Source of the DNA: Burkholderia sp. 9120
GTDB lineage: Bacteria; Pseudomonadota; Gammaproteobacteria; Burkholderiales; Burkholderiaceae
Length of the DNA stretch: 64,000 bases
Reading direction: 5' to 3'
Assembly (NCBI RefSeq): GCF_000745015.1
Contig: NZ_JQNA01000002.1
Location: forward strand, 868,001 to 932,000
Shown: positions 8,409 through 26,423 of the stretch, piece after piece
Numbering within the stretch: the first letter of the stretch is position 1
Layout: every line of letters starts with the position of its first letter
Position numbers and translations under genes: made by a program
The notes under the pieces: model-generated
Databases searched by the model: none
What the model was told of the DNA's origin: nothing
Seen by the model: the letters and a program-made list of their open reading frames with translations, nothing else

Positions 8409-8472
8409 AGTGTTTGCTTTCCTACTTCAGGATGATGGGGATGAAGCGAACCGCTTCGAATCGATTCAGGTT

Positions 8473-9495: not shown

Positions 9496-9558
9496 GTCCC
9501 ACTCCCCGTTTTCAGATGATTTGAGCTACCGGCCGGCGTGCGCCTGACGCCCGCGCGG

Positions 9559-10458
9559 TCACGGCTGTTCGGCCGGACCCACGCCGACCGTGGCGAGATC
9601 GCCGTCGGTGACGTACGGCACGATCCCGTCCGCCGCGATACGCGCCGCCGTGGCGGGTCCGCATGCGGTGTCGGCGGGATCGCAATAGTCGATCGACAGC
9701 ACCGGCAGCCGGTATTGCTCGCGGATCGTCGCGGCCTTCCCGAGCAGCCAGTCGCGGTCGGCTTGCGGCACCTCGGTATAAGCCTGCTTGCTCGCGTCCC
9801 AGCCGCGATACAGCGACTCGAACGCGACCACGTAGGCGAGATCGTGGACCTGCGGCAAGATCTCGAAACCGCGGTTGAAAATGAGCCTGGCTTTCGGATA
9901 ACGCGACTTGATCGCGCGGATCACGCGGATCATGCCGGCTTCCTGCGCGGCGCGCGCGGTGTCGGTTTTAGCGATCAGCTGATAGGAGTCGAGCGTGTCG
10001 AGGAAGAAGCCGCGATAGCCCTTTTTCCACAACGGCGCGATCACCTTGTCGACGAAAAACGCGGGCCACTCGGGCGCCGTCTGGTCGACCACGTGCGAAG
10101 CCCACGCCTCGTTGACTGCCGGCAGCCACGTGCTCGGCATCGCGCTTAAATAAGTGCGATCCGGGTTCACCTCGCCGACGCTGACATAGGCGAACCACGC
10201 GGGATGCGTTTTCCGATGAGCGCGCGGATCGAACCGCGCATCGGGCTCGACCACGACCACATCGAAGCGCGCCAATTCATCGACCGGCGGATTCGCGCCA
10301 TAGAACAGCGCGATCGAAGGCCCCGCCGGCGTGCTCACCGCGTCTTGCGCATGCGCCACCGACGCCAGCGCGCCGAACGCGGCCATGCGTGCGAAGCGGC
10401 TAATCAGGCCTAGTAAGTGGCGCAATGAAAAGCGCCGGTCGTCATCGTGCTGAGCCAA
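9559..10458 (-). CDS. Secreted stand-alone PelA-type polygalactosaminidase
   Basis: 299 residues from a TTG start with GAGGG upstream. A signal peptide ends near AHAQDA (residues 35-40). The TIM-barrel domain matches the hydrolase domain of the PelA in this locus along its length (FYGANPPV, GYRGFF, ESLYRG, PYVT), so it is a paralogue of that domain. Candidate catalytic acids are present: Glu96 in SVGE, Asp154 and Asp157 in FFLDTLD, and Glu214 in FESLYRGWD. Expected activity is endo-cleavage of alpha-1,4 GalN/GalNAc polymer in the periplasm or outside. It lies 63 bp upstream of galE in the pel direction. The family is the GH114/GH166-like group. Confidence 0.88.
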   Translation of the reverse strand: MAQHDDDRRFSLRHLLGLISRFARMAAFGALASVAHAQDAVSTPAGPSIALFYGANPPVDELARFDVVVVEPDARFDPRAHRKTHPAWFAYVSVGEVNPDRTYLSAMPSTWLPAVNEAWASHVVDQTAPEWPAFFVDKVIAPLWKKGYRGFFLDTLDSYQLIAKTDTARAAQEAGMIRVIRAIKSRYPKARLIFNRGFEILPQVHDLAYVVAFESLYRGWDASKQAYTEVPQADRDWLLGKAATIREQYRLPVLSIDYCDPADTACGPATAARIAADGIVPYVTDGDLATVGVGPAEQP

Positions 10459-10534
10459 ACCCCGTCCCTCTTAAATATTTTCGAGCGAATCCGCCCGCCT
10501 TGCGCGTGCTGTGCGCGCCTCGCCGCCTTAGCTA

Positions 10535-11674
10535 CTAGCTACCGGAAGTCAGAAACGACCACCAGCAGATACTGTCCAGCGCCTCGGTCGAAATCGACGG
10601 ACTAAACCCCGCCTGACGCGCCGCCGTCCACGCGGTTTGCGCGCTCGACGACGCCGTGCATGACGACGTGTAGTCGAGCGAGCCGACGAAAAAACCGCTG
10701 CGCCCGAGGTTCTGCTCCGTGCTTTGCCACGACTGCAACTGCTGCACGAGCGACGTGCTCACCGACGGCAGATAGACCTGCTCCGCGAGCACACCGTCGA
10801 TCAGCCACGGAAACGCCACCCCACCGCTGCTCCCGTTGATGACCTGCACCGGCGCCGCGTTAGGCACCAACGCCAGATTCGGGAAACGGTCGCGCAGTTG
10901 CTTGACGAGATCGAGGCCGCCTTGCGCGCAGGTGGCGTCGCACGGACCGGCCGACGTATTGGTGCCGTGTCCGACGATCTCGAAGTTATCCAGCATGAAG
11001 CCGTCCACGCCGGTGGCCGCGAGACGCGGCGCGACGTAATTCACGATCAGGTTCTGATAGTCGGCGTTGGCGGGATTCATCCAGTACTCCGGGAAGCCCG
11101 AATATTTGCCGAGTTGCGCGGCGGTATTCGCGCCGCACGACACGAAACCGGACGGCACCGTGCTCCAGTAGGTGCGCGATTTCTCGCAGGCGCCGAGATT
11201 CAGGTAGCTCAACACTTTCGCGCCGTTAGCCTTCAATGCCGCGATCTGCGCGGCGGAGAACGCCGGCGTGCCGGTGCCGGGGTCCGCGTCGATCACGATC
11301 AGCTTGAAGGTCGACGCCACCTGGCTGAGGGTGAGCCCGCTCGCATCGCCGTAATACACGGCCCAAACCGGCGCGACCGGCAGCGTACGCGCCGCCGCGA
11401 TCACGGGCGCGGGCGTGGCCGGTGTGTTGATCGAGGCAGGGGGCGTCGGCGTAGCGGTGCTGCCGCCGGAAGGCGTCGCCGACCCGGCGGTCGCGGCGCC
11501 CGACGCGGCCCCGCCCGAACCGCCGCCACCGCCGCCGCACGCGGCCAGCAAACCCGCCGCAACGACAACCACCGCGCCGCGCCAACGCAACCTGCGACAA
11601 CCCGCGCGACGCAGCTCGATGGCAAGACACGCGCGGGCAGCCCGGCGCAAGGGGCCAAGGAAAAGCTGAAACAT
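10535..11674 (-). CDS. Endo-alpha-1,4-polygalactosaminidase lipoprotein (GH114-like)
   Basis: 379 residues from the ATG at 11674. A hydrophobic signal ends in the lipobox LLAAC, followed by six glycines and a Ser/Thr/Pro/Ala-rich linker of about 60 residues, so the enzyme is probably tethered to the outer membrane. The catalytic barrel follows (VWAVYYG, SYLNLGACEKSR, GFMLDNFE, ending in WW), with several cysteines that could form disulfides. The family hydrolyses GalN/GalNAc polymers, fitting its place 134 bp downstream of pelG. It is not closely related to the 9559 enzyme, so the locus has two hydrolase types here. Confidence 0.85.
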   Translation of the reverse strand: MFQLFLGPLRRAARACLAIELRRAGCRRLRWRGAVVVVAAGLLAACGGGGGGSGGAASGAATAGSATPSGGSTATPTPPASINTPATPAPVIAAARTLPVAPVWAVYYGDASGLTLSQVASTFKLIVIDADPGTGTPAFSAAQIAALKANGAKVLSYLNLGACEKSRTYWSTVPSGFVSCGANTAAQLGKYSGFPEYWMNPANADYQNLIVNYVAPRLAATGVDGFMLDNFEIVGHGTNTSAGPCDATCAQGGLDLVKQLRDRFPNLALVPNAAPVQVINGSSGGVAFPWLIDGVLAEQVYLPSVSTSLVQQLQSWQSTEQNLGRSGFFVGSLDYTSSCTASSSAQTAWTAARQAGFSPSISTEALDSICWWSFLTSGS

Positions 11675-11808
11675 ATTGGAATCCGGAGTCGAACGATACA
11701 AGGGCAAGGCGCAGACACGCCGCTTCGATTCACACAACGCGTCTGGCTCTCACCGTATGAACGGCAGGCCAGCCACGATCTTGAATCGAAAACGGCAGCG
11801 CCGCTCCT

Positions 11809-13182
11809 TCAACCCCGCAACATATACGTTTCGTATTCCAATGACATGAATTTTCTATCGAGCACTTTCACGGAAGCCACCACCACGACCAGCAACGCGA
11901 GCGCGAAACCGTAGCCGTAGTAGTCGGGACCGAGCCTGAGCGTGATGCCGGTGAACAGTCCGTTCAGCAGCACGAACCCGGCGGTGAGCCGCAGCACCAT
12001 GCGCCGTCCGTCCAGATAGAAGAACACGTTGAGCAGTCCGAGCAGCAGCACCTGCAGACTCGCCGATACCACGTCGACGACGAGCAGCGGCAGATACAGC
12101 GGCGAAATGCCGAGCGAAGCCAGCACGCGCTCGCCGAAGGCGATGATCAGCAACAGCACGATAGTCTGCACCTTGATGATCTCGTACAGGCCGGCGCGCA
12201 CGCTGCCGACCATCATGTCGCGCATTTCGTTGATATGGCGCAGCGTAGCGCCGCTGCGCACCGCGTTGTAGAACGCGTCGTAATACTCGACGAAATCCGC
12301 TTCGATCCGCACGAGGAAGGTCGCCATGCCCGGCATCACGCACACATACGCGATAAAAATCGGAATGTCGTAAATCACCGACGCATGCAGCGGCCCGATC
12401 ACGCGGGTGCCCGTGCCCGGCGAATACCAGAACATGAACTTGTCGAGCCACACGCCGATATTGAACAGCAGCCCGACCAGCGCCAGACTCGGATAGGCGA
12501 AACGGCGCTCGAACACTTCGAACGAAATGAACCGCTCGGAGCGGTAGTTGCGATAGATCAGCCCCGACAGGCCGGCCAGCAGCACGATATGCCCCGCCAC
12601 GAATCCGCCGAGCAGACCGACCAGCCCATAGCCGTTCAACGCCAGCGCGAGACACACCACGCACGCATAGCCGACGAAGAACACCAGCAGAATCTGCCGG
12701 TACTGCTTCACGCTGGACAGGAAAATGACGGCGATCCAGATATTGCTGACCACCACGAAGCCCGTGATCATCAACAGACGGTAGATCAGCGGCTCGCTGC
12801 GAAACCCGACCAGCATCGCGATCACGGCGACCGCGGCCGCCAGCAGCGACGACACCAGCACCACGCCGTTATAGTTCGACAGCACCAGATCGTCGCGCTT
12901 CTCGAACAGCCGGTCCGAAATGAAGCGCGTGAACGACAGTTGCAACGGCCCGGTCAGGATCAGGCTCAACGCGATCAGATACGTAACCGACACCTGGAAC
13001 TGCACGATCGCGAAGGTCGGTATCACCGACGTCAGACTGATCAAACCGATAATCAGAATGCCGAAGATCGACAGAATCAGCGGCCCTGAGCTGATCAAGC
13101 CCGCGTAGGCATAAGCGCGCGCCACGCCCATCAGCGTGTCGCGGCGCATGATCTTGCGCAATTCGAAGCCAATCCCCGCCAT
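11809..13182 (-). CDS. pelG: Pel polysaccharide transport membrane protein PelG
   Basis: 457 residues, usual length, with about 12 hydrophobic helices of the flippase/MATE-like PST fold. The N-terminus MAGIGFELRKIM is characteristic of PelG. It is thought to work with PelD, PelE and PelF to move the nascent GalNAc polymer across the inner membrane. The start overlaps the last base of the pelF stop (TAATG), so translation is coupled. It is the last canonical pel gene before the accessory hydrolases. Confidence 0.95.
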   Translation of the reverse strand: MAGIGFELRKIMRRDTLMGVARAYAYAGLISSGPLILSIFGILIIGLISLTSVIPTFAIVQFQVSVTYLIALSLILTGPLQLSFTRFISDRLFEKRDDLVLSNYNGVVLVSSLLAAAVAVIAMLVGFRSEPLIYRLLMITGFVVVSNIWIAVIFLSSVKQYRQILLVFFVGYACVVCLALALNGYGLVGLLGGFVAGHIVLLAGLSGLIYRNYRSERFISFEVFERRFAYPSLALVGLLFNIGVWLDKFMFWYSPGTGTRVIGPLHASVIYDIPIFIAYVCVMPGMATFLVRIEADFVEYYDAFYNAVRSGATLRHINEMRDMMVGSVRAGLYEIIKVQTIVLLLIIAFGERVLASLGISPLYLPLLVVDVVSASLQVLLLGLLNVFFYLDGRRMVLRLTAGFVLLNGLFTGITLRLGPDYYGYGFALALLVVVVASVKVLDRKFMSLEYETYMLRG

Positions 13183-14840
13183 TAGCGTGTCTCCTGCGAT
13201 TGAACGGACGCCGCGGTCTGCGCACGCGCGCCCGCTCCGTTCGATTGAGTGCCATGGTTCACCGGGCAGCGCGCGGCGTCGCCGCCCGCAGCGTTCGCCT
13301 TACGATCCGGCAGCGCGGCCAGACGCTCGTACAGCACCCGATAGCGATCGATCATCTGCGTCTTCGTGTAGTAGCGGCGCACGCGAGCCAGGCCCGCCTG
13401 CTGCGCGGCCAGCCAGCGCGCGTCGTCGGCGAGCAGCGACAGCACCGCCTGGGCGAACGCCGCCGGGTCCGCGAGCTGCACCACCATGCCGGCCGAGCCA
13501 AGCGCGCGGTCTTCTTCGTCGACGCCTTCGATCAGTTGGCGGCACGAACCCACGTCGGTCGTGATGGCGGGCACGCCAGCGGCGAAGCCCTCCAGCACCA
13601 CCAGCGGCAACGCCTCGCTGATCGAGGTCAGCGCGATCACGTCGACCTGCGGCAGCATCTCGTCGATACGCTGGAAGCCGAGGAATTTCACATTCCGGCC
13701 GAGCCCGAGACTTTCCACCAGCGCACGGCATTCGAGCGCATAGGCGGGATCTTCCTCTTCCGGCCCGATGATCCAGCCCTCCAGATCGGGCAGACTGCGC
13801 GACGCGATAAAGATCGAGCGAATGAAGGTCTTGATGTCCTTGATCGGCACCACCCGGCCGATCAGCGCCACCACACGATGCGCGCGCGGTTTGCGCTGCG
13901 CCACCAGCGGCGCGAGACCGTCGACGTCGATGCCGTTCGGAATGCATTGCGTGCGTTCGGCACGCGCGCCGTCGGTAATCTGGCGCTGACGGTTGGTCTC
14001 GTACAACGCGACGATGTCGTCGGCGGCGTCATAGGCGAGCTTGCCGATCGCCTCGAAGAAGCGCACCCACAGCTCGCGGAAATAGCTGACGCGCGAGATA
14101 TCGCGCTCGAACACGCCGCGGTTGTCGCGAATCCACTGGCTTTGCAGCAGGTCGATCTTGCGTTCTTTCGTATAGATGCCGTGTTCCGAAATCAGCAACG
14201 GCCGGCCGGTGCGGTAATGCATCAGCGCGCCGAGGAAGCCGCCGTAACCGGTCGACACCGTGTGGTACACCCGCGCCGGCAACAGCTTTTCGGCGACGCG
14301 GGCAAGTTGCCACAACGGCTTGTGCATGATCCGCACGGTCCAGAAATAATCGGTGAACGACGGATCGGTGCAGTACTTCTGGTACTGATCGACGATCGTG
14401 TCCCACGCCGCGCGGCTCGACAGAAACTCCGCCTCGTTCAGCGCGCCTTTCTCGCCCAGCATCGGAATCATGCTGGCCATCAGCGCGCCGGCGTCCACGC
14501 CGCTGCGCGTGTCGCGCAGCGCATCGTGCAATTCCTGCGAGCGCGCGAAGGCCGCGGCGTCGCCGGCGACCGCGCGCGGCTGCGGCAGGTCGGCCCGCTC
14601 CGACTCGTACAGGAAGTGCGTTTCGATATGCACGACGTTATCCGGCAACGCGTACGCAACGCCCGAATAGTCCTGCAGGCGGCTGCCGATGAACACGATC
14701 GCGAAACGGGTCGTCGGATAAGAGCGGATCATTTCATTGACCCAGCTCGACACCCCGCCGCGCACGAACGGGAACGTGCCTTCGAGCAGCAGGCAGACAT
14801 CGGCGTCGGCGGCGCGACGTACAGGAAGTTCTTTGATCAT
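13182..14840 (-). CDS. pelF: Pel polymerising glycosyltransferase PelF
   Basis: 552 residues, GT4-type GT-B enzyme. The N-terminal EGTFPFVRGGVSSWV glycine-rich acceptor region, a SEHGIYTKE motif, the central GRVVPIKD segment and the C-terminal ALPLVVLEGFAAGVP nucleotide-sugar motif are intact. It polymerises UDP-GalNAc/GlcNAc in the cytoplasm at the PelDEG complex. The last 40 or so residues form a low-complexity Ala/Gln/Ser tail beyond the catalytic domain. It overlaps pelE by 4 nt and pelG by 1 nt. Confidence 0.96.
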   Translation of the reverse strand: MIKELPVRRAADADVCLLLEGTFPFVRGGVSSWVNEMIRSYPTTRFAIVFIGSRLQDYSGVAYALPDNVVHIETHFLYESERADLPQPRAVAGDAAAFARSQELHDALRDTRSGVDAGALMASMIPMLGEKGALNEAEFLSSRAAWDTIVDQYQKYCTDPSFTDYFWTVRIMHKPLWQLARVAEKLLPARVYHTVSTGYGGFLGALMHYRTGRPLLISEHGIYTKERKIDLLQSQWIRDNRGVFERDISRVSYFRELWVRFFEAIGKLAYDAADDIVALYETNRQRQITDGARAERTQCIPNGIDVDGLAPLVAQRKPRAHRVVALIGRVVPIKDIKTFIRSIFIASRSLPDLEGWIIGPEEEDPAYALECRALVESLGLGRNVKFLGFQRIDEMLPQVDVIALTSISEALPLVVLEGFAAGVPAITTDVGSCRQLIEGVDEEDRALGSAGMVVQLADPAAFAQAVLSLLADDARWLAAQQAGLARVRRYYTKTQMIDRYRVLYERLAALPDRKANAAGGDAARCPVNHGTQSNGAGARAQTAASVQSQETR

Positions 14841-15847
14841 GACCAGTACTTCACCACCGGTTTGAGTGTGGGCAACGCGGCCGCGTTACCCAGCGAGCCG
14901 AGCAGTTGCGACACGCTGGCATAGTGGCCGCGCAGGAAATCCGCCTCCGCCAGCCACGGCACCAGCCGTTCGCGCGGGAAGCCCAGATCCAGCGCCCGCG
15001 CAATATGTTCGTGAGCGGCATCCGGCAGACCGTTCGCCAGTGCGAGACGGCCGCGAATCAGCCACAGCGCCGCGTCGCTCTGATCGGTTTCGAGCGCCGC
15101 CTGCGCGTAGCGGTCGGCCTGTTGCAGCGTGTGACGGTAGACCGCGCCCTGCACCAGGTTCTGGTACACGAGTTCGAAATAGAGTTCGGCCAGCAGACGG
15201 TTGAGCGCGTGGCGCTCGGCGTCGCTATGGGTGGCTTCCAGCGCTTTGCCGGTGCGGAAGATCTTCTGCATGATTTCGTTCTCGGCATGGTCCAGCGTGC
15301 CGTACGCAATCAGGCGAATGTCTTCCAGCGGATCGGCGAGCAGTTCGCGCAGCAAGGTGCCCGTAGTGCGGGTCGGCATGCTCTGGATCGCCACGAGGGC
15401 CGACAAACGGTCAGTGGCCGACACCTGGGTATTCGCGAGACGCGCCTGCAGGCGCGCGCCGCCGCCGTGCGACACCCGCGACACCAGATAGGTGACGAAT
15501 TCCGGACGCGGCACGTCGGTAAGCTGATCGCTTTCCTTGCGGCCGGGGAACAGCGCGGCCCAGATGCAACTGATCAGCACCACGACGCCGCCGAACAGCG
15601 GCACGAAGGTGCACGCCGCCCACAGGAACAGCAGCGACATCGCGCGCGGTTCGCGATAGTTCGGCGGCAGCCAGCAGCGCAAGGCGATCGCCTCGGCCAG
15701 CCCGGCCACGGCCTGCAGCGCGAGAAAGCGCAGCAGCGGGTCGATCGCGCCAGCCGGCGTCAGCAGGCTCACGACCGCCAGATACTGGAGGACCGCCGCC
15801 ACCAGCGCGACCAGCACGCTCACGATGAGGGACAGGGGCTTAGACAT
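14837..15847 (-). CDS. pelE: Pel inner-membrane TPR protein PelE
   Basis: 336 residues. Two hydrophobic segments lie at about 6-30 and 70-100 with charged loops between. A soluble region with TPR-like helical repeats follows from about 150 to the end (alternating Ala/Leu/Tyr positions, as in ALWLIRGRLALANG). PelE is part of the PelDEFG synthase complex and probably a scaffold for PelF. It overlaps pelD by 8 nt and pelF by 4 nt, indicating tight coupling. Identity rests on topology, length and position. Confidence 0.9.
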   Translation of the reverse strand: MSKPLSLIVSVLVALVAAVLQYLAVVSLLTPAGAIDPLLRFLALQAVAGLAEAIALRCWLPPNYREPRAMSLLFLWAACTFVPLFGGVVVLISCIWAALFPGRKESDQLTDVPRPEFVTYLVSRVSHGGGARLQARLANTQVSATDRLSALVAIQSMPTRTTGTLLRELLADPLEDIRLIAYGTLDHAENEIMQKIFRTGKALEATHSDAERHALNRLLAELYFELVYQNLVQGAVYRHTLQQADRYAQAALETDQSDAALWLIRGRLALANGLPDAAHEHIARALDLGFPRERLVPWLAEADFLRGHYASVSQLLGSLGNAAALPTLKPVVKYWS

Positions 15848-17258
15848 CGAGGCCGCTTCGTTTGAGAAGACGCAGCAACGCCGCGCCCGGCTCGTCGCCC
15901 TCGAGGTGCAGCGTATGAACGCCGACGCGCGAATGTTCCAGATCCGAGTTGAACTGGGCCGTCAGGCTGGCCTCGATCCGCGCCAGATAGCCTTCGATCC
16001 CGGTGGTGTCGGTCGCCGGCATCAGGTTCACCAGCACCGATTGTTTGGCGGTCTGCACCGGCCACATCACGTCGAGCGAACGACGGCGGCGCATGACGTG
16101 TTCGAACAGCGAATCGCCCTCTTCGTCGCGCGGGAACGCCAGCGCCACCAGCGACGACGCCACGCCCGCCTTCTGCTGCAGACGCGTCAACCGGCTCAGG
16201 TCGAGCGCGAATTCGTACGGGCAGTTCGGCACGCTGTCGAGAATGCGCTGCACGAACGCCGAATGCTCGACGCCGTCGGCGTAGTAACCGAGCAGCACCA
16301 GCAACAGTTGCAGGTTGTCGAAATTGAGCGACAGGAACGGCATGCGCTTGACGATCAGCAGCGCGCGCAATTCGCCGTCGGCCGAGACCAGCGGCGCGCA
16401 GACCAGATACTGGCTGACCGGTACCATGGTGTCTTCGTTCTTCAGATGCGCGACGCTCAGCGTGGTGAGCGCGTGCGTGACGAGTTCGTCGTTCGCTTCG
16501 AGTTCGAACGCGTCGCCGATCTGCGCGATGGCCTGGGTGCCGAGCTTGCCGTCGCGCACCGGGTACAAGGCCGCCACTTCGATCTGGCAGGCCTGCGCGA
16601 CGAATTCGAGCAAACCGCTCGCGCCCGTCAGCGTGTCGCCCGGCGCAGCGGCGGCCGGCACGGCCAGCGCCGTGTCCGTCGCCACGGAAAGGCGGCGCAA
16701 TTCGGTGATCGAATCGCGCAGCGTGGTCGGCCGGGACAACAGGTCTTTCTCGAGCCGCTCGTGCGAGAGGCGCATCAGATAGTGACTGTTGGTCAGCGCG
16801 ACGAGCCGGTCGTTCAGGTAATCGTTCAGCGACGACGCCCGCTCGGCGCGGGTGCCCCACGTGTCGCCGAAATGCCCGGCGAGAATGGTCTGGATCAGGC
16901 CGCCCGCAAAAAACATCGCGGGGAACGCGTTGCCGTGCGGATAAAAGAAGGACCATGCGCCAAGCATAATCACGCCGGACAGCAGACCGAGCAGACTGCC
17001 GTAGCGCAGCGCCACCAGCAGCGACACCAGCCACACCCACGGGTAGCCGGCGTGCAGCAGCAACGGGTCTTCGGGATGAAACCAGTGCGTCAGGGCCAGC
17101 ACGACCACCACGAGCGCGATGGTTTCCACGATCGCGAACGGCCGCGCCACCGCGGGCGCCAGAAAGCGGCGCACACGTCCGAGATTGCCGAACGGATGCG
17201 CATGGCGCGGCTTCGAGGCGCCTGGGTTGTTTTCCACGGCTGCGGTATTCACGGCCAT
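15840..17258 (-). CDS. pelD: c-di-GMP receptor of Pel synthase, PelD
   Basis: 472 residues. Four transmembrane helices lie at about 40-140, then a short coiled linker, a GAF domain (about 195-335) and a degenerate GGDEF-like domain lacking a GGDEF motif. An RxxD inhibitory-site motif survives as Arg393-Ser-Leu-Asp396, with a further Arg427 about 34 residues on, matching the spacing of the ligand-binding residues known in Pseudomonas PelD. It should therefore bind c-di-GMP and switch on PelF post-translationally. A 76-nt gap separates it from pelC and an 8-nt overlap joins it to pelE. Confidence 0.95.
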   Translation of the reverse strand: MAVNTAAVENNPGASKPRHAHPFGNLGRVRRFLAPAVARPFAIVETIALVVVVLALTHWFHPEDPLLLHAGYPWVWLVSLLVALRYGSLLGLLSGVIMLGAWSFFYPHGNAFPAMFFAGGLIQTILAGHFGDTWGTRAERASSLNDYLNDRLVALTNSHYLMRLSHERLEKDLLSRPTTLRDSITELRRLSVATDTALAVPAAAAPGDTLTGASGLLEFVAQACQIEVAALYPVRDGKLGTQAIAQIGDAFELEANDELVTHALTTLSVAHLKNEDTMVPVSQYLVCAPLVSADGELRALLIVKRMPFLSLNFDNLQLLLVLLGYYADGVEHSAFVQRILDSVPNCPYEFALDLSRLTRLQQKAGVASSLVALAFPRDEEGDSLFEHVMRRRRSLDVMWPVQTAKQSVLVNLMPATDTTGIEGYLARIEASLTAQFNSDLEHSRVGVHTLHLEGDEPGAALLRLLKRSGLDV

Positions 17259-17334: not shown

Positions 17335-17886
17335 TTACTGACGCGCCTGCAACGGCGACAGCACCTTGGCGATCAGCGAGCTGGCCACGCTCGACAGACC
17401 CGAGCGGCTCCAGCCGGTACGCGTACCCGTTGCGCTCCACACCACGGCGCCGTTCGATACGTCGATCAGTTCGAACGTCACGCCGACCACCGGCTCGCCG
17501 TCCACGCCGGTCTTGTAACGCCATTCTTCGACGGCGCCCGAGAGCACGTAACGGGCATTCTGCGAGCGCGCCCAGTCGAGCGCCTTGTCGCCGTCGCCGC
17601 GTTGCGTCGTGTCGAACATCGCGTTGCGGCTGGCATCGGCCGGCGCAATACGCACGTCCGCAATGCCGCCGACGCGCAGCGTGTTGGCCGCGATCGACTC
17701 GGCGCTGTGACCGGCGTCCGGCGTTTCAGTGTAGTTGGCGATCGACACCACCGCCACTTTGTCGCCGCGCGAAAGCGTCGGACCCGAGGTCTGGCGGACC
17801 GTGCCGCAGGCGCTCACGATCAGGGCCAGCGTGGTTGCCGCGACACACCAGGCGCTGGTTCGAGCCAATTGTTTGATGCCGTACAT
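17335..17886 (-). CDS. pelC: Pel outer-membrane lipoprotein PelC
   Basis: 183 residues. The signal peptide ends in a clear lipobox LIVSAC, so Cys27 should be acylated and the protein anchored in the outer membrane facing the periplasm. The mature domain is the alpha/beta fold of PelC, which forms a ring that guides polymer to the PelB porin. A C-terminal WSRSGLSSVASSLIAK helix is typical. ATG start with GGAGAA upstream. It lies 35 nt after pelB. Confidence 0.93.
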   Translation of the reverse strand: MYGIKQLARTSAWCVAATTLALIVSACGTVRQTSGPTLSRGDKVAVVSIANYTETPDAGHSAESIAANTLRVGGIADVRIAPADASRNAMFDTTQRGDGDKALDWARSQNARYVLSGAVEEWRYKTGVDGEPVVGVTFELIDVSNGAVVWSATGTRTGWSRSGLSSVASSLIAKVLSPLQARQ

Positions 17887-17921: not shown

Positions 17922-20900
17922 TCAGTAAAACCAGCTATAACGCGCGCCGATCTGGGTCACAGGCGTGCCGAGACGCGACACACGCTGATGTGAGAAAAAG
18001 ACTGCCGCATGGTCGCCGCCGAACACGGTGCCCGCGAGCCCCAGGCTGACTTCCGGCCCCCAGCCCTGGAGCGTGTCGTGCAGCATGCCGACGTCGAGAA
18101 ACGGCCGCCACGCGCGCGTGTACTGATCGATCAGATCGTTGCCGAAACCGAAGAACAGCCCGTATTGCGAGTACGTCTGCGGGACGAACGACGCCGCGGT
18201 GGCGGGACCGGCGGCCACCGGAATCAGCCGCGAAATCAGGCCGTCGGCCGCACCGCTGGCGCTGTAGTCGCCGTGCGCGCCGATCAGCCGTATCGTGTAG
18301 TCGGGATAGTTGGTGCGGATCCGATAGCCGATTTCCCCCGTCGACAGCACGCCGCTGCCGAGGTAGTGACGCGCCTGGCTATAGAAGCGGTCGGCTTCGA
18401 CGGTGCCGGTTGCATACAGGTGCTGCGTGGCGTGATAGGTGACCGTGCCGATCACGTTGTCTTTCATGCCGCCGATCTGCAGCGCCTGCGATTCCAACGC
18501 CGTCTGGTTACGGCCGGCCTTGAGCTCGAACGACAGCGGCGAGTTTCTGCCCCACTCCGCGCCCACCGCGACGGTGTAGAAGCTGTCGAGTGCCTCGCGG
18601 CGCCCCGCGCTCACCTGGAAGGCCGTGTCGTAGGTTTGCCGGCGGGCGAAAAACTCCACCGAGCGATCGATTGCCGGCACCTCGGTGAGCTGCGAGGTAT
18701 CGGTCGAATGCTGGAAGCGCTGGACACCCGTCACGCCGACCATGTACAGATCGGCCACCTTGATGCTGCCCGCGAGCGTTTGTTCGATGTAGTCGAGCGG
18801 ATGCTCGACATAGCTCGTGACCGTGGCATCGAGCGATTGCGGCCAGGTCAACGCGGTCTGCTGCAGGCGGGTATGCATTTCCGAATCGTCAGGGGCGCCT
18901 TCGAGTCCCTGAAACGAGAGATCTTCGGCCGCGCCCGGACGGTCCACCTCGATCGACGCGTCGATCCGGTTGTAGAGCGGCAAGTGCGAGCCTTGCTGAT
19001 CCAGCAGACGCTCCATGGCGGGCTTGTCGTTCTCGGCGAGCGCGATCGCGATCAGTTGCTCCGAAGGCTGCAACAGCACGGACGCGTACTGGCGAGCCAG
19101 CCAGCGCTTTGCCAGCGGATTCGCTTCCTGAGACATCGCCCAGGCCAGCGCCACATCGCGCGCCACCGACGAAGTCAGACGCCCCTGATCCGGCGCCGCC
19201 GTCGCGGCTTTTGCCGGCTTGAGTTGCGCGGGCGGCAGGCCCGGCGTATCGCCGAGCAGCGTGCGGCGCACCTCGGTGTGGTCGTTGCGACCGGCGTCGG
19301 AGGCGAGCAGATCAGTCAGGAACGCCTTCGACACATCGCCGTTTTCGAAGATCGAGGCGAGCGTCACGCGGCGGCCGAGCAACTGCTCCCGCACATCCCC
19401 GCCCTGCGACGTCCGCGTGCGCAGCGCGACCTGACCCGCCGCGTTGTTGGCGCGGATGTCGGCGCCTTCCTGCTGCATCTGGCGCCAGACATTGCGCCGG
19501 ATCGACCACGCGCGATCGCCGCGGCCGGCCATCTCCTGCGCTTCCGCGTAGGTCAGTTGCCAGAGCGGATCGCGTGACATGGAAGCCGACTGCAGGCGCA
19601 GATACCTAAGCGCCGCTTCCGGCCGGTTCAGACGCATCAGCGCGGCGGCCAGCGGCCCCCACAAGGCGGGCGCCTGGGCGGGCGCGTCGCGCCACTCGGC
19701 CACCGCGTCGCGCAGTTGCGCTCCGCTGCCGTAGTCGACCAGCGTCCACAGCAACGCGGCGCGCAACTCGAGCGTGGCGCCGGGCAATGTCGAGGCGGCC
19801 TGCAGGTCGTGCAGCGCGTCGTACGGACGGTCGACCTCGAGATAATATTCGGCCCGCGCCTGCAGGAAAGCCGGATCGCGTTCGGCCGCGCTCAGTTGCG
19901 CGGGCGACAGGCTTGCCAGCAACTGCGCGACGCGATCGAACTGCTCCGCGATGGTGTAATAGTGAATCACCCCCTGCAGCGCGAGTAGCGACTGGTCGCG
20001 ACGGAATTGCAGTTCGGACGTGCGAGCCGCATCGATCGGATACGCGTCGTAGAAGTACGTCATCGCGCTCAGGTCTTCGGGTGTCGCCTGATTGCTTGCC
20101 AACAGATGCTTGTACGCGTCGTTCGCCATGTCGTCGCGTTGCAGAAGACGGGCGAGTTGCGCGGCATTGCGCCAGAACAGCACGTCGTTGTCTTTCGCAC
20201 CCTTGCGAGCCGCGAGGAGTGCATTGAGCGCACCTTTATAGTCGCCGTGACGATACAGCATGCTCGCCGTGCGCAGCGCGTATTGCGTGTTGTCCGGATA
20301 GAGCTGATTCAGCTTGCGGTAATAGGTCAGCGCTTCGTCGTCGTGACCGGAGCGCTCGGCGAGCAGCCCCAGGCGGGAATCGATCGCTTCGGCCGGCGAA
20401 TTGTGTTGACGGCCGCGCAGGAAAGTCAGCGCGTCGTCAGGACGACCGAGACGCTCGTAGGTCGCGACCACCGAATCGAGCAGCTTCAGATCGCCGGGCG
20501 CCGCATTCGACGCCTGAATCAACGCCGCCAGATAGGCGTTGTCGTCGTTGAGCATCGGCGCGAGGCGCATCACGTTTTTCCAGCCGTCCGGATCCTGCGT
20601 GATCTGCGCGTAGGCGAGCCACATCTGCAACGCGAGCGGCGACGCATGATTCCATTCGGCGACCTGAGCAAGACGTTTAGCCCACACCGCCGAGCCCGGA
20701 TTCTTCTGGACCTGTTCGGTCGCCACGCGCTGCGCGTTCGGCAAATCGTTCGATTCGAGGAAAGACTGATACAGCAGGCCCTGGACGTCGGTCCCCGACG
20801 CGGCGGCGGAGCTCGACGCGGAGGCTGCCGGCGCAGCGGATGCCACGCTCGTGCCCGATGCCGCCGACACGGCCGCGGCACCCGATGCCGCCGCGACCGA

Positions 20901-21944
20901 CGAAGCACCCGCAGCATTCACCGCTGCGGCCACCCGCACAACGTGCGCGTCACCCCGGCCGTGCGTGCCGATCCGCATCACCCGGCCGGAACCGGCTTGC
21001 GGACCGTCCATATAAGCGTACGGCTGTTGCGAGCCGTCAAGCTGCTCGCGCTCGCGGATAAACGCGACCAGCCGCAGCGCACCGCCGTTGTCCGGCTGAG
21101 CTTGCGCATAGCCGGCCAGCGCCTTCGCGTAACGATCGACCAGATCCGGCCGATGCGCCGCGCGCGCCAGGTTCAGCAACACGATCAGCGTCTCGTGATC
21201 GTGCGCGAAAGCCGCGCCGTGCTGGTCGGCGGCAGCGAGCGCGTCGTCGAGCAGATTGCCGCCCTGCAGCGCCCGGATGCCTTCGATAAAACAGTGCCGC
21301 TGCGCGTCGAACGTCGCCGCGTTCGCCTGCAGACGGAACCAGCCGTCGGCCGCACCGCGATAGTCGCCGCCGTACATCGCAAAGCGCACCACTTCGCGGT
21401 TCCAGCGCGTTTGCTGCACCGGGTCCTGGACCGCGAGGCGCGCATACAGTTGCTCCGCGAGTTGTTGCGCACTCACCGATGCGGCCATCTCGGCCAGCAC
21501 CTGCAGGTCGGCGGTCGACCACGACGACGCGGCCGCATTCGCGAGCTGCGCGCGCAGACGCACCAGCGCAGCGTCGCGCGCCGGGTCGTTGACGGGCAGC
21601 GCAAAAATCTCGCGCGTATCGACGGTCAGACGCAGCAACTGCGCCGAGCGGCGCATCGCCTCGGACGGCATGGCCGCCATGCGCACGGCGATCCGCCTCG
21701 CGTCTTCGTTGCGGCCCAGCTGCACGTATTGCGTGCCGAGCACCGACAGAATCTCGGCGTTATCGGGCTGCACGCGCAGCCAGGCTTCCAGATAAGCAAT
21801 GCTCAGGTCGCTCGGCGCGTCGGTCGAGGTCATCCGGCTACGCAGACCACCGCGCGGATGCACGAGGTACAGCGTCATCAGCACGACACCCGCGAGCAGC
21901 AGGACGAGCCAGGTCGGCGCGATGCGAGGGCGGGTATCAACCAC
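17922..21944 (-). CDS. pelB: Pel outer-membrane export protein PelB
   Basis: 1340 residues. One N-terminal membrane helix (about 12-28) is followed by a very long TPR superhelix (about 45-960) and a C-terminal 16-strand-type beta-barrel (about 1010-1340) ending in the aromatic YSWFY. An Ala/Ser/Val-rich low-complexity insert of about 45 residues lies near 335-385, between TPR blocks. By family the TPR part holds PelA in the periplasm and the barrel exports the polymer. The start overlaps the pelA stop by 8 nt. Length is somewhat greater than the Pseudomonas protein, mainly through the linker. Confidence 0.95.
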   Translation of the reverse strand: MVDTRPRIAPTWLVLLLAGVVLMTLYLVHPRGGLRSRMTSTDAPSDLSIAYLEAWLRVQPDNAEILSVLGTQYVQLGRNEDARRIAVRMAAMPSEAMRRSAQLLRLTVDTREIFALPVNDPARDAALVRLRAQLANAAASSWSTADLQVLAEMAASVSAQQLAEQLYARLAVQDPVQQTRWNREVVRFAMYGGDYRGAADGWFRLQANAATFDAQRHCFIEGIRALQGGNLLDDALAAADQHGAAFAHDHETLIVLLNLARAAHRPDLVDRYAKALAGYAQAQPDNGGALRLVAFIREREQLDGSQQPYAYMDGPQAGSGRVMRIGTHGRGDAHVVRVAAAVNAAGASSVAAASGAAAVSAASGTSVASAAPAASASSSAAASGTDVQGLLYQSFLESNDLPNAQRVATEQVQKNPGSAVWAKRLAQVAEWNHASPLALQMWLAYAQITQDPDGWKNVMRLAPMLNDDNAYLAALIQASNAAPGDLKLLDSVVATYERLGRPDDALTFLRGRQHNSPAEAIDSRLGLLAERSGHDDEALTYYRKLNQLYPDNTQYALRTASMLYRHGDYKGALNALLAARKGAKDNDVLFWRNAAQLARLLQRDDMANDAYKHLLASNQATPEDLSAMTYFYDAYPIDAARTSELQFRRDQSLLALQGVIHYYTIAEQFDRVAQLLASLSPAQLSAAERDPAFLQARAEYYLEVDRPYDALHDLQAASTLPGATLELRAALLWTLVDYGSGAQLRDAVAEWRDAPAQAPALWGPLAAALMRLNRPEAALRYLRLQSASMSRDPLWQLTYAEAQEMAGRGDRAWSIRRNVWRQMQQEGADIRANNAAGQVALRTRTSQGGDVREQLLGRRVTLASIFENGDVSKAFLTDLLASDAGRNDHTEVRRTLLGDTPGLPPAQLKPAKAATAAPDQGRLTSSVARDVALAWAMSQEANPLAKRWLARQYASVLLQPSEQLIAIALAENDKPAMERLLDQQGSHLPLYNRIDASIEVDRPGAAEDLSFQGLEGAPDDSEMHTRLQQTALTWPQSLDATVTSYVEHPLDYIEQTLAGSIKVADLYMVGVTGVQRFQHSTDTSQLTEVPAIDRSVEFFARRQTYDTAFQVSAGRREALDSFYTVAVGAEWGRNSPLSFELKAGRNQTALESQALQIGGMKDNVIGTVTYHATQHLYATGTVEADRFYSQARHYLGSGVLSTGEIGYRIRTNYPDYTIRLIGAHGDYSASGAADGLISRLIPVAAGPATAASFVPQTYSQYGLFFGFGNDLIDQYTRAWRPFLDVGMLHDTLQGWGPEVSLGLAGTVFGGDHAAVFFSHQRVSRLGTPVTQIGARYSWFY

Positions 21945-24705
21945 AGGCGGCCTCGACTGACAGATAGTTCAGTTTCGTGCCGATGTCGGCCGGCGTGTCG
22001 AAACGCAGGAAATCACCGTCGCGACGGGCCGCAACCGGCTGGTTGTTGATGCTGATCCTGCACGACTGCGCGTTTGCCAGCTTGACGAACGGCAGATAGT
22101 GACCGGCAAATTCAAAATGCATACCCTGCGGCGTGCGGCGGAAATTGCGCACGAAACCGTTGGCTTCGGCGATATACGGCACGCTCGCCGCGCCGCCGAG
22201 CGCGAAGCGCGCACTGCCGTCGTCGATATGGATATAGGTGCCGTCGGGACCGTTAGAGAAACCGGTCACGCCCTGCGCCGCATCCAGCGACGGTCTGGCG
22301 GTCTGCGGCCAATGCAGCTCGCGCACCGAGCCGTCGCCACGCACCACCCAGCCGCCTTGCGGGCCCACCTCTTTCGCCACGGCAAAAGTGCGCCAGTCCA
22401 GCACCTTGCGGATGTACTCGGTCACATACACCGGCAGCACCGGCTGCTTGAGCACCGTCGAGAAGATCTGGTCGAGCGCGCGCAACGACGCCACCTTGGT
22501 GCCGCTATACATGTGGTAGTAGACGTCGATCGGCTTGAAACGCAGCGGACGGTCCGTCATCGCGTAGGTTTCGAGTACGCGCGTAAAGCCATAGAACGGG
22601 CCTTGCCAGTCGTTCGTGTAGACGTTCTCGTCCTGGTTCGGCGCATACACCTGGTAGGCGCCCGGACCTTTGTCGACGCCGATCGGCGCGATATTGGTCC
22701 AGCTGTTGGCCGACTTCGTGATAACGGTGTCGCCGCCGTTGAAGTTATAGACGCCGGCTTCATACACCTTGCGCACGACGAAAGCGGGCGGCTGGCAATC
22801 GCCGGACCATTGCAGCATCACGGTCTTCTTGCCGGGCGGCGCGAGACGCGAGTTGATATAGTCGATCGAACCGGTGATCTCACGGTCGATATTGAATTTA
22901 TATCCCGGAATATTCAGCGAGAACGCCGCATCGCCGCCGCCAACGTCCACCTGGGCGCCGGTCTTGTTGTCGACATGTTCCCATTGGAAAGGATGCGAAT
23001 ACGTGTGCGTGCCGATCTCGACGTTCGGCAGCGCGAACATCTTGCGGGCGATCTCTTCGAGACGCGGCGAGATGTCCGCATGCAGTCCCTTCGCGCCGAC
23101 CTCGCCTTCAATGACCGACAGCGTCATCGGCACCTTGTAGCGGCTGAAAATCTGCTGGTACAGCGCCTCGCCCGAATAATCGGGACCCGGGAATTCGGCG
23201 CGCGACGCAAAGCCGTCGCCGTCGACATGCGACATGAACAGGCGGCGGCCGTTTTCGGTCGTGACGCTCGGCGACGGAAGGTCTTGCAGATGCAGCGCGG
23301 CTTTCATGAAAGCCATCGGCTGAATCGCCCAGCGTTCCTGCTCGATGCTGTCGAGCGAGGCCACGGTGTAAGGGCTCAGCGCGTAACCGCCCCACGGGGT
23401 GAGCGCGATCTGGTCGACCAGCACGCCATTGGCCGAGATGCGCAGCAGCGACTGGCTGTGCGGTCCGACACGCACACCCAGCAAATCGCGCGGCTCGGGT
23501 TTCGGATTGATTTCGAAGCCGACCATGGGATCGCTCTTGACCACCGAGACCGGCGCGGACAGCGTGCCGCTCACGTCCTGCAGATCGAGCGCCGCGCCGG
23601 CCGAACCGGCGGCGTCGAAACCGAACTGACCAAGAAACGCGACCGGCACGTGATCCGCCACGCGGGCGGCGACCCAGCGTTGCCAGGCTTCGGGGTCCGG
23701 CGCCGCGCCGCGCTGGATCCACGCGACCACGCCGGCATAGCGATCCGGCGAAATGTTGTCAGGCAGACGCGACGAGAAATCGGCGTACTCGACGTCGTAG
23801 CCCATGTAATTGAGCGGCGTGGCCAGATCGCGCACACCGGCGCTCAAGTCGAGCGGTTCTTTGGTGTCGCGGTCCTGAACGACGAGAATCTTGCGCGGTA
23901 ACACTTCGATCCTGCCGATGCCGACCACGTCGCGCGCGCGGCTGGTCACGTACGGCAGCATGCCGGCCGCCACCACGCGAGCCGCGGTTTCGCGGGCGCA
24001 CTGACGGTCGTTGCGCGTGCAGTACTCGACCGAGACGACCGGCACACCGGTCTGCTGGGTGAATGCACGCGCCTTCGCGAGGCGATCCGCGCGCTGCGCT
24101 TCGGGCACCTCGACCGGCCGGCCGCTATCGTCCAGTCCACGAACGAGCGACTCCCCGACCACCGCGTACAGCGATTTCGCATACGGCAGCGCGGCCTGCG
24201 TGACGTCGGCGCCACCGGCGACCAGTCGCGCATCCGGATGCATCTCGCGAATGCGCGCGGCCGCGGCGATCGCGACCGGCGTTTCAAGCAGGAACCCGCG
24301 ATAGCCGCGCCGCCACAACGGCTCGACCTGACTGGCGATAAACGCTTCGGCGGTGTCACCGGGCTGGCCGGCGGTCGTGCGCGCGATCCACGTGGTATGG
24401 CGCAGCGGATGAGCCAGCGGCTCGAATCCCGTGGCGGGATCGACCACCACGGCGTCGAAAGCCTGCAGTTCGCCGACCGGCGGATTGGCCGCGTAGAAGA
24501 AAGCGAGATTCGGCGGGGCTGTGGCAACGCCATTCGCGGCCGATGCCGACGGCAACGGCGCGGCCTGGAGGTGAACGCCAAGCGGGGCAACGGCGCTCGA
24601 ACCCAGCAGCACTGCAATCAAGGTGCGCTGGAAAAACCGTTTGCCGGTTCGTTCAGCTACCTTGCGAGAATTCCCGCCGGCCCGTGTCCCGGTCCGCTTC
24701 TTCAT
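21937..24705 (-). CDS. pelA: Pel deacetylase/hydrolase PelA with decayed hydrolase domain
   Basis: 922 residues from the ATG at 24705, chosen because a basic n-region and signal peptide (RTLIAVLLGSSAVAP) follow. Residues about 70-265 are the hydrolase-like domain. Compared with the paralogue at 9559-10458 it lacks about 32 and 15 residues, SVGE is replaced by TTAG, and LDTLD by LETP (Glu141). Only the GES glutamate (Glu185) remains, so this domain is probably inactive or altered. The polysaccharide deacetylase domain looks intact: SHVDGDG near 489 and THTYSHPF near 567. It should deacetylate GalNAc in the periplasm. It is the first gene of pelABCDEFG. Confidence 0.95.
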   Translation of the reverse strand: MKKRTGTRAGGNSRKVAERTGKRFFQRTLIAVLLGSSAVAPLGVHLQAAPLPSASAANGVATAPPNLAFFYAANPPVGELQAFDAVVVDPATGFEPLAHPLRHTTWIARTTAGQPGDTAEAFIASQVEPLWRRGYRGFLLETPVAIAAAARIREMHPDARLVAGGADVTQAALPYAKSLYAVVGESLVRGLDDSGRPVEVPEAQRADRLAKARAFTQQTGVPVVSVEYCTRNDRQCARETAARVVAAGMLPYVTSRARDVVGIGRIEVLPRKILVVQDRDTKEPLDLSAGVRDLATPLNYMGYDVEYADFSSRLPDNISPDRYAGVVAWIQRGAAPDPEAWQRWVAARVADHVPVAFLGQFGFDAAGSAGAALDLQDVSGTLSAPVSVVKSDPMVGFEINPKPEPRDLLGVRVGPHSQSLLRISANGVLVDQIALTPWGGYALSPYTVASLDSIEQERWAIQPMAFMKAALHLQDLPSPSVTTENGRRLFMSHVDGDGFASRAEFPGPDYSGEALYQQIFSRYKVPMTLSVIEGEVGAKGLHADISPRLEEIARKMFALPNVEIGTHTYSHPFQWEHVDNKTGAQVDVGGGDAAFSLNIPGYKFNIDREITGSIDYINSRLAPPGKKTVMLQWSGDCQPPAFVVRKVYEAGVYNFNGGDTVITKSANSWTNIAPIGVDKGPGAYQVYAPNQDENVYTNDWQGPFYGFTRVLETYAMTDRPLRFKPIDVYYHMYSGTKVASLRALDQIFSTVLKQPVLPVYVTEYIRKVLDWRTFAVAKEVGPQGGWVVRGDGSVRELHWPQTARPSLDAAQGVTGFSNGPDGTYIHIDDGSARFALGGAASVPYIAEANGFVRNFRRTPQGMHFEFAGHYLPFVKLANAQSCRISINNQPVAARRDGDFLRFDTPADIGTKLNYLSVEAACG

Positions 24706-25410
24706 AGCCAAAATCTTTTCCCCGTTCTCTGCTGACTGAACACGAGCGGCGATATCTCCACAGGGAGAAAATTTCCGCTTGCTGATTTTTGAGCCGGCCT
24801 GTTTGGCATTAATTACGCAACCCAATGCGGCGTCGCGCCGGATGCGAAACCGGCCTGTGTTTGTTTCTTGTTAAGGCCGTGGAAGATAGCACATGAGTTG
24901 AGTCGTCTCAAGCTAGCTTCAGCCATTGTTGACATTCCCGCGGCTGAATACAACGCAATGCATCTGCTTGAATCTCAAGGCAAACGATTGCGCGGCAAAT
25001 CCCCTGTCCGGCAAAGCCTGGCCTGATGTGTTGGGAATACGCCGCACTCAAACCCGAGTCACCATGAACACGCTCAAATCATCTGATCAATAATTGGGTA
25101 AAAACTGCACCACCGTTCGTTTTTCAAATAAGCTTTAGCGATTTTTTTACATCGTTTCGCAAAAGCCAATTCTCCTTAATTTGCAAAAGGCGAACTTTCC
25201 CCAATGCCGGACCCAGCAAGTAATAAATCGTAATACCAGACGAAAATCGATTTCATCCATCGCACGCGCCACACCGGAAGAAAAAATCTCGGCGAATCGG
25301 GAAGACCCTGGTCTCAGCCGCTCCGCCGCAGCCGACGGCGGGTCCGAAGACAGGATCGGCGCGGCGGCATCGTATGCAAGATGATTTATCGGCCAAGCCC
25401 CTAAAGGAAT
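24706..25410. promoter_or_regulatory. Divergent leader region between pelA and the spherulin-4 gene
   Basis: About 700 bp without a convincing gene. It is markedly AT-richer than its surroundings, especially 25080-25215, with T-runs and A-runs around 25130-25160, so promoters of both divergent units probably lie here. A minus-strand frame continues the pelA ORF up to 24825 but lacks a better start. I searched both strands for a second GACGCAAA-type riboswitch core on the pelA side and saw none. Confidence 0.5.
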
Positions 25411-25524
25411 CGGCGGGCATTGCCGTTAGCGCAGTTGGCAAACCCGGAGTGATCCGGCGACGCAAAACTATAGGGACTCCCTTGGGGAGTTTGCCAGTTG
25501 CCCGCCGTAACCGCGGCGGGCCAA
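25411..25524 (+). ncRNA. c-di-GMP-I-like (GEMM) riboswitch with switching stems
   Basis: The conserved core is readable. GGCAA at 25437-25441 pairs with TTGCC at 25498-25502 (P1). P2 is a CCGGA/TCCGG stem with a GTGA GNRA tetraloop, followed by the hallmark GACGCAAA at 25459-25466. P3 is ACTCCC/GGGAGT with a short loop, and the aptamer closes with GCCAGTTGCC. The G before CAAACC is the c-di-GMP-type base. The P1 3' strand can instead pair with CGGCGGGCA at 25411-25419 or with CGGCGGG at 25514-25520, giving an expression platform. AGGAGG at 25553-25558 precedes the downstream ATG. No U-tract follows, so control may be translational. Confidence 0.82.
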
Positions 25525-25562
25525 TCGACAACGGTCATCGACAGACCGGGTCAGGAGGCCAG

Positions 25563-26423
25563 ATGAAAAAAATCCAGGGGTTGGGTACGCTCGGCGTTGC
25601 TGTTCATAAATCCAACGAAACGAAGCGCCGCGCGACCCGCGCCGGCAAAGCGCTGAAACGGGCCACGCTGATGGCCTGCATGCTGGCCGGTTGTCTGCAC
25701 GGCACGGCGTTCGCGGGCACCACGGCCGCGCTCAGTCTGGTGGTGCCTTCCTACTTCAATGCGACAAAAAGCGTGGCCGACTGGAACAGCATGGTCACCT
25801 CGGCTCATCAGGTATCGACCACCGCCATCCTGAATCCGGACAACGGCCCCGGCACCACCACCGACCCGAACTACGCGGCCGCGACGGCCAGGGTTCGCGC
25901 GGCGGGCGGCAAGGTGGTCGGCTATGTGCACACGTCGTATGGCAAGCGCTCGCTCTCCACAGTCGTGGCCGAAATCAATGCGTATGTAGCGCTTTACAAG
26001 GTTGACGGCTTCTTTATCGACGAGATGTCGAACGACAGCAAAATCGCGCACATCCAGTACTACCAGTCGCTCTACAACTACATCAAAGGCCTGAACGCGA
26101 CGTACTCGGTGACCGCCAATCCGGGCACCAACATTCCGGAGCTGTACGCGAGCTTGCCGACGGCGGACACCTTCGTCGTTTTCGAAAGCACCGCCAAGGC
26201 TTATGCGAAATACGAGCCGTTGAGCTGGCAGGCGGCGTATCCGAAGACCCGCTTCATCCACATGGTGTATAGCGCGACGGCCGCGCAAATGCCGGGCATC
26301 GTGCAATACGCGAGCACGCACGGCGCGGGCGGCGTGTACGTGACCTCGCTGGGCGGCTCCAATCCTTATAAGGCCTTGCCGCCCTACTGGAGCGCCGAAG
26401 TCACGAACGCAATCACGCCTTGA
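25563..26423 (+). CDS. Secreted spherulin-4-family glycoside hydrolase (GH135-like)
   Basis: 286 residues from the ATG at 25563, which has AGGAGG 5 nt upstream; longer frames run through the riboswitch and are rejected. A long basic n-region precedes a signal ending TAFAGTT (about residues 35-57). The TIM barrel has the family pattern (LVVPSYFN, KVVGYVHTSYG, VDGFFIDEMSND, ANPGT, FVVFEST, GGVYVTSL). The spherulin-4 group includes Sph3, which cuts GalNAc/GalN polymers, so Pel is the likely substrate. It diverges from pelA and is preceded by a c-di-GMP-type riboswitch, so expression should track the same signal that activates PelD. Confidence 0.9.
   Translation: MKKIQGLGTLGVAVHKSNETKRRATRAGKALKRATLMACMLAGCLHGTAFAGTTAALSLVVPSYFNATKSVADWNSMVTSAHQVSTTAILNPDNGPGTTTDPNYAAATARVRAAGGKVVGYVHTSYGKRSLSTVVAEINAYVALYKVDGFFIDEMSNDSKIAHIQYYQSLYNYIKGLNATYSVTANPGTNIPELYASLPTADTFVVFESTAKAYAKYEPLSWQAAYPKTRFIHMVYSATAAQMPGIVQYASTHGAGGVYVTSLGGSNPYKALPPYWSAEVTNAITP

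Follow-up and report, generated by a model that had tools for sequence, protein, structure and literature searches.

A spherulin-4-type hydrolase gene transcribed away from a pel operon in Burkholderia sp. 9120 is preceded by an RNA that, by its covariance score, belongs to the c-di-GMP-I riboswitch class. We judge it somewhat probable that this RNA acts as a translational OFF switch on an exported, sigma-28-transcribed GH135 hydrolase that is made in motile cells with low c-di-GMP. The aptamer, the intact candidate catalytic residues, a conserved hairpin (H1) with a conserved GGC, the promoter motif and the co-occurrence with PelG are each supported computationally. In the proposed mechanism, the hydrolase mRNA would be transcribed from a sigma-28 (flagellar) promoter and would carry the class I c-di-GMP riboswitch at its very start. 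In the absence of c-di-GMP the ligand-contact cytosine would be paired in the base of H1 and the Shine-Dalgarno sequence would be open. Binding of c-di-GMP would capture this cytosine, open the base of H1 and free a GCC; the freed GCC would pair with the GGC overlapping the Shine-Dalgarno, extending the helix of a second hairpin (H2) around the site and lowering translation. A sigma-28-type promoter combined with an OFF riboswitch would place synthesis in motile, low-c-di-GMP cells, opposite to the polymer synthesis driven by PelD in biofilm-building, high-c-di-GMP cells, which would not make the enzyme. The cells that make the hydrolase are thus probably ones not engaged in biofilm building. 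The role of the enzyme would be to trim Pel, or a related polymer of N-acetylgalactosamine, or to release it.

An Rfam covariance search of the window (the whole 64,000-nucleotide stretch of DNA that was analysed) returned a single RF01051 match, with a score of 50.8 bits where the gathering score is 35 (E 5.4e-7 for the 64 kb window, 1.7e-8 for the genome), and this match was also the only one in the genome (two contigs, 8.46 Mb). The sequence-only reading had placed a GEMM-type (c-di-GMP-I) aptamer in the hydrolase leader and had suggested this covariance check; the score lies above the family cut-off and all of the motifs it had listed were found. These are GGCAAACC at 25437-25444, a P2 helix at 25444-25457 capped by a GNRA-type GUGA loop (25449-25452), GACGCAAA at 25459-25466 followed by P3, and then GCCAGTTGCC at 25493-25502. 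The ligand-contact positions G20, A47 and C92, whose roles in contacting c-di-GMP have been described (PMC3764141, PMC4744006), correspond by sequence to G25437, A25464 and C25501, with the numbering transferred. The RNA would be expected to bind c-di-GMP.

Table 1. Predicted features of the hydrolase leader, the hydrolase gene and the divergent pel locus (positions in the window)
Feature	Positions	Strand	Basis
Predicted sigma-28 -35 element, TAAAG	25402-25406	+	With the -10 element, 12/13 consensus positions; 0/300 shuffles of own upstream sequence
Predicted sigma-28 -10 element, GCCGTTAG	25422-25429	+	Sequence, promoter scoring
Predicted RNA start (approximate, to within a few bases)	25435	+	Placed 6 bp past the octamer, as in E. 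coli aer
c-di-GMP-I aptamer, Rfam match	25427-25505	+	RF01051, 50.8 bits
Hairpin H1, base formed by G25500 and C25501 (C92 equivalent)	25500-25521	+	Basal pairs in 48/49 and 49/49 leaders
GCC, predicted to be released on opening of the H1 base	25520-25522	+	Folding model, leader comparison
Hairpin H2, closed by GAC/GUC	25527-25552	+	Fold, leaders, sequence
Shine-Dalgarno, AGGAGG	25553-25558	+	Sequence
GGC overlapping the Shine-Dalgarno, partner of GCC 25520-25522 in the ligand-captured model	25557-25559	+	Folding model, leader comparison
Spherulin-4 (GH135/Sph3-type) hydrolase, 286 aa	25563-26423	+	PF12138, 154.5 bits; Sph3 entries; invariant residues
pelA-like gene	21937-24825	-	Position, length, deacetylase match below Pfam cut-off
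pelB	17922-21944	-	PF24604
pelC-like gene	17335-17886	-	PF13036 barely over cut-off, position
pelD, PelD_GGDEF c-di-GMP receptor domain	15840-17258	-	PF16963
pelE-like gene	14837-15847	-	Named by position and length; no Pfam match
pelF	13182-14840	-	DUF3492 and glycosyltransferase domains
pelG	11809-13182	-	PF16933
GH114-type hydrolase	10535-11737	-	PF03537
Second GH114-type hydrolase	9559-10458	-	PF03537
galE-like epimerase	8473-9495	-	PF01370, PF16363
glmS-like amidotransferase	6591-8408	-	PF01380, PF13522

The identity of the downstream gene product as a spherulin-4-type hydrolase, also proposed from the sequence, was borne out by a PF12138 match well above the Pfam cut-off (30.2 bits) that covers profile positions 2-236 of 239. 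Its likely start is the ATG at 25563, preceded by the AGGAGG listed in Table 1; a longer frame from 25374 would cross the aptamer. Only two solved structures matched the protein, the Sph3 (spherulin-4) entries 5c5g and 5d6t (E 1.9e-11). The catalytic residues of Sph3 are D166, E167 and E222, an Asp-Glu pair with a Glu 55 residues later (PMC10485009), and the aligned positions of the hydrolase hold the candidate catalytic residues D153, E154 and E208, which are invariant in 49/49 relatives. The nearest named relative, from Paraburkholderia bryophila, is 95% identical. By eye the N-terminus resembles an export signal and the enzyme would be exported; lipid anchoring is uncertain because a lipoprotein-type cysteine occurs in just 3 of the 12 N-termini inspected.

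The hydrolase gene diverges from the pel operon on the opposite strand, whose genes are separated by short gaps. Both the position opposite pelA and the presence of a PelD_GGDEF c-di-GMP receptor domain in the divergent operon agree with the sequence-only reading. The operon seems to extend across 6591-11737, which encodes the two GH114-type hydrolases and the galE-like and glmS-like genes, and the same genome contains a second PelG match (G000:C2:4686035-4687393) with one in-frame TGA, which points to a second, perhaps broken, pel locus. Pel or a related polymer would be the target of the hydrolase. As a point against this reading, fungal Sph3 breaks up Pel aggregates of Streptococcus intermedius and not the Pel biofilms of P. 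aeruginosa (PMC12345266), which makes acetylated stretches or a differently modified Pel the likelier substrate.

Directly upstream of the aptamer, TAAAG and GCCGTTAG agree with 12 of the 13 scored positions of the sigma-28 (FliA) consensus, which is that of E. coli (TAAAGTTT-N11-GCCGATAA); at E. coli aer, transcription begins 6 bp past the octamer (PMC2859248). The equivalent start in the window would fall about two bases before the G20 equivalent. Using the pattern TAAAG, 14-15 nt, GCCG(A/T)TAA with at least 11/13 positions, a sigma-28-type promoter was detected directly upstream of the aptamer in 34 of 49 distinct leaders, and for none of these did more than 2.7% of 300 shuffles attain the promoter score. 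Between the end of the octamer and GGCAAA there are 7-10 nt in 33 leaders and 21 nt in L003. A spacer of 14 between TAAAG and GCCG (N11 plus 3) is present in 31 of the 34 motif leaders and is 15 in the window, L013 and L091. The spacer of the window (25407-25421) is one nucleotide longer than that of the close relatives L010, L011 and L014, and its extra G contributes to the upstream match discussed below. In the same genome, fliC and flgK (named from their starts) have sigma-28-type sites at 11/13, and two 20-kb flagellar stretches contain six frames of at least 80 codons with a site of at least 11/13, these two genes among them. Genome-wide, the pattern is non-specific (283 matches versus 450 for a reversed control), and the promoter claim therefore rests on conservation beside the aptamer; inspection by eye of the genes downstream of 30 fetched pattern matches revealed no clear flagellar gene set. 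The motif was missing from 15/49 leaders, namely the Ralstonia-type leaders and L046. The motif-less leaders have another conserved upstream block in eleven inspected, less clearly in L054; in L047, L048, L050, L053, L055 and other Ralstonia-type leaders it lies around CCGTTTGCC and GGTAGAGT, with a small hairpin before the aptamer. The conserved motif, which at 13/13 also precedes the hydrolases of L142 and L035 (described below), suggests that sigma-28 would transcribe the hydrolase gene.

The 49 leaders derive from 52 distinct aptamer-hydrolase leaders, from which L025 (decayed hydrolase) and L059 and L060 (no recognised Shine-Dalgarno layout) were dropped. Three further RF01051 matches (L023, L042 and L061) were missed by the core pattern and hence lie outside the set of 52; L025 and L026 score under the Rfam cut-off, and the called start codon of L091 is doubtful. 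L059 and L060 are Oxalobacteraceae-like leaders that do not show the Shine-Dalgarno layout, which counts against the model.

Alignment of the leaders downstream of the aptamer was anchored for H1 on GGCC, taking the register with the most pairs, and GGC was sought at the leader end. The GGCC rule cost no leader, and the 49/49 counts for the GGCC and GGC letters are partly built in because these letters helped to set the register. H1 pairs 1-6 are present in 47-49 of the 49 leaders. Pair 4 is C-G in 43 leaders, U-A in three and U-G in three; pair 7 is C-G in 32, U-A in eight, U-G in three and unpaired in six. A C stands directly 3' of H1, H2 is closed by GAC/GUC or an equivalent across the leaders, and GGC overlaps the end of the Shine-Dalgarno while the Shine-Dalgarno itself varies (AGGAGG, CGGGGG, CAGGGG, CGAGGG).

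Ligand capture was mimicked by taking G91 and C92 out of the fold. The mean GCC:GGC pairing probability over the 49 leaders then rose from 0.12 to 0.95, and a full switch (from below 0.2 to above 0.8) occurred in 36/49 leaders compared with 2.0 with shuffled linkers. Pairing of the Shine-Dalgarno plus C increased by 0.26 on capture versus 0.01 in the shuffles. When 15 nt of coding sequence were added, GCC:GGC pairing changed from 0.11 to 0.82, the mean unpaired probability of the modelled Shine-Dalgarno fell from 0.54 to 0.43, and the site was less open in 39/49 leaders. For RNA beginning at the predicted start in the 34 sigma-28-type leaders, GCC:GGC pairing went from 0.05 to 0.75, the median cost being 4.8 kcal/mol, with Shine-Dalgarno pairing up in 23 leaders, down in seven and equal in four (mean 0.48 to 0.56). 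The predicted masking of the Shine-Dalgarno itself is thus modest, and its strength is uncertain because AGGA is part of an internal loop, which the model regards as unpaired. Some leaders, L034, L037, L043 and L103 among them, have a weak H1 and a weak switch. A GGCAA:UUGCC pairing considered for the unbound RNA had a mean probability of 0.00 in the 34 leaders and was rejected. Folded as a whole, the leader (25405-25600, which includes probably untranscribed bases) gave a z-score of -1.13, with 22/200 shuffles folding equally well or better.

The conserved layout speaks for c-di-GMP as a repressing signal, a direction that the sequence-only reading had left unnamed, and in the folding model OFF is the likelier direction of the switch. 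The reverse arrangement, in which c-di-GMP raises hydrolase synthesis and the enzyme acts alongside Pel synthesis, such as by processing the polymer or setting it free during its making, appears unlikely while remaining the strongest competitor. ON-type c-di-GMP riboswitches exist, the output of Vibrio cholerae Vc1 dropping with lowered c-di-GMP (PMC4744006); in the fungal system polymer synthesis needs Sph3 (PMC11356417); and the pel operon adjoins the hydrolase gene. Against an ON switch, modelled capture of C92 releases GCC for Shine-Dalgarno pairing in those 36 leaders, and a sigma-28-type promoter fits motile cells.

Control at the RNA level, with c-di-GMP altering Rho-dependent termination or RNA decay through H1 rather than translation initiation, is in our estimation quite improbable. 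Such control would be invisible to a pairing model, and the authors of the Vc1 work likewise found neither a terminator nor an anti-Shine-Dalgarno (PMC4744006); it would, however, leave the retention of GGC at the Shine-Dalgarno unexplained. An intrinsic terminator was rejected, as there is no U-tract after H1 and terminator-like matches in 24800-25700 are near the shuffle level (two versus 1.6 in shuffles), with none at H1.

Still less probable is the model of the sequence-only reading, in which a longer transcript would let CGGCGGGCA (25411-25419) and CGGCGGG (25514-25520) compete for the 3' strand of the aptamer. Both partners are present as letters and the downstream one is conserved across species, whereas the upstream one is unsupported. 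A sigma-70-like site further upstream (25065-25094) could supply the longer transcript, and in the six leaders that have the 9-bp upstream match, namely that of the window and five of one other clade, 0 to 7% of shuffles attain it. A search of all 49 leaders showed that the upstream P1 is not generally conserved, the match being short or absent in the other 43 (4, 6 and 6 bp in L010, L011 and L014), and its pairing would tie up the ligand-contact C. The upstream partner moreover lies in the spacer between the conserved promoter elements, 16-24 nt ahead of the predicted RNA start near 25435. No P1 helix would accordingly be expected, and if this start holds there is no space for one. P1 is a feature of the crystallised Vc2 RNA and lies outside the Rfam consensus structure; to our knowledge, a c-di-GMP-I riboswitch without it is unusual for the class.

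It is very improbable that the aptamer is a relic or of little effect and the hydrolase merely co-expressed with flagellar genes: although L142 keeps a 13/13 sigma-28-type promoter without a detectable riboswitch and L035 keeps a decayed aptamer (4962-5015, 24.9 bits, most of P3 missing) under another 13/13 promoter, aptamer core and platform are retained together in 49 distinct leaders from several genera.

To follow the distribution of the unit, 53 hydrolase loci were collected by a contig scan using the hydrolase of the window and every one was searched with Rfam. RF01051 was located upstream of the hydrolase in 31/53 loci, all 31 falling within the group of 35 closest loci (L027-L061, Burkholderiales), and in none of the remaining 18 (L062-L079). 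The four close loci without an RF01051 call in the Rfam search are L035, L038, L045 and L051, and in the last three neither riboswitch nor sigma-28 motif was found. Within the genus, 26 of 144 genomes have an RF01051 match, 24 of them over the cut-off; in all 24 the hydrolase gene adjoins the riboswitch, and in 14 a pelA match falls within the same 3-kb locus. PelG was detected in 24/24 riboswitch genomes versus 36/120 others (Fisher 2.7e-11). An even sample of the family (398 genomes) gave PelG in 34/34 riboswitch genomes versus 112/364 others (1.0e-16), and both probabilities are only indicative because the sampled genomes share ancestry. Since PelG occurs in all riboswitch genomes, the riboswitch-hydrolase unit accompanies Pel even where the two are not adjacent. 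A strong spherulin-4 match (E below 1e-40) was present in 39 of the 398 family genomes, all 39 with PelG and six lacking a riboswitch match, while three weak spherulin-4 genomes (G167, G262 and G473) were without PelG; the filters in these large searches were stricter and may miss weak matches.

Several individual loci depart from the common arrangement. Genome G160, which lacks spherulin-4, has two c-di-GMP-I riboswitches, and in its locus L146 the aptamer at 3592 precedes an HD-domain gene (3927-5099). In L025 (G142) a below-cut-off riboswitch is followed by hydrolase fragments beside pelA, and the unit seems to have decayed. RF02278, a Betaproteobacteria toxic small RNA, precedes the riboswitch by about 1.1 kb on the minus strand in L059 (3577-3639), L060 (3662-3724) and L061 (91-153).

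A broader form of the proposal, which we hold only tentatively, is that of a conserved Burkholderiaceae dispersal circuit. The hydrolase would be double-gated, by the flagellar sigma factor for transcription and by a P1-less aptamer that starts only a few nucleotides into the mRNA and blocks translation through a three-nucleotide exchange moving GCC from the ligand-contact hairpin to the Shine-Dalgarno; both gates would follow a single choice of lifestyle, and Pel producers would make it only when motile. The release of matrix-making cells from their own matrix is an open practical question. If true, the translational OFF switch proposed here would form a small circuit that connects swimming, c-di-GMP and an enzyme that cuts the matrix; the hydrolase and the Pel synthase would be predicted not to be on simultaneously, and the leader would represent a compact riboswitch architecture that lacks a closing helix. 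The aptamer class itself is known, and what is new to us is the platform, the promoter and the gene found under a c-di-GMP-I riboswitch. The literature searched, outside which most subscription papers fall, contained no account of a spherulin-4 gene preceded by a riboswitch ('riboswitch' with 'spherulin' returned 0 papers). A regulon survey counts 21 GEMM-controlled polysaccharide-degradation genes, which may include some of the present ones (PMC3766115).

Comparison with characterized systems places the leader among known c-di-GMP-I RNAs (RF01051, GEMM) while setting its output apart. It shares the aptamer core, the GNRA-capped P2 and the G20/A47/C92 contact positions with Vc2 and Vc1 of Vibrio cholerae; unlike in those RNAs, no P1 is expected here, the predicted platform exchanges a GCC at the Shine-Dalgarno and the RNA precedes a spherulin-4 hydrolase gene. 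The predicted OFF logic and the link to motility are shared with the Cd1 OFF riboswitch of the Clostridioides difficile flagellar operon (PMC4744006), although Cd1 precedes flagellar genes, whereas here the gene encodes a matrix hydrolase and the flagellar link would come through the promoter. The Bdellovibrio merRNA is likewise a c-di-GMP riboswitch RNA, massively expressed in a motile phase in which promoters are mostly of the sigma-28 type, but it has no downstream gene, and the table in that paper does not mark it as FliA-promoted (PMC3627812). The fungal galactosaminogalactan cluster, with Sph3 (GH135) and Ega3 (GH114), similarly brings together GH135, GH114, epimerase, synthase and deacetylase functions (PMC10485009, PMC11356417); in the window, by contrast, a bacterial pel operon supplies the synthesis genes, and the GH135 gene is separate from it, with its own predicted promoter and riboswitch.
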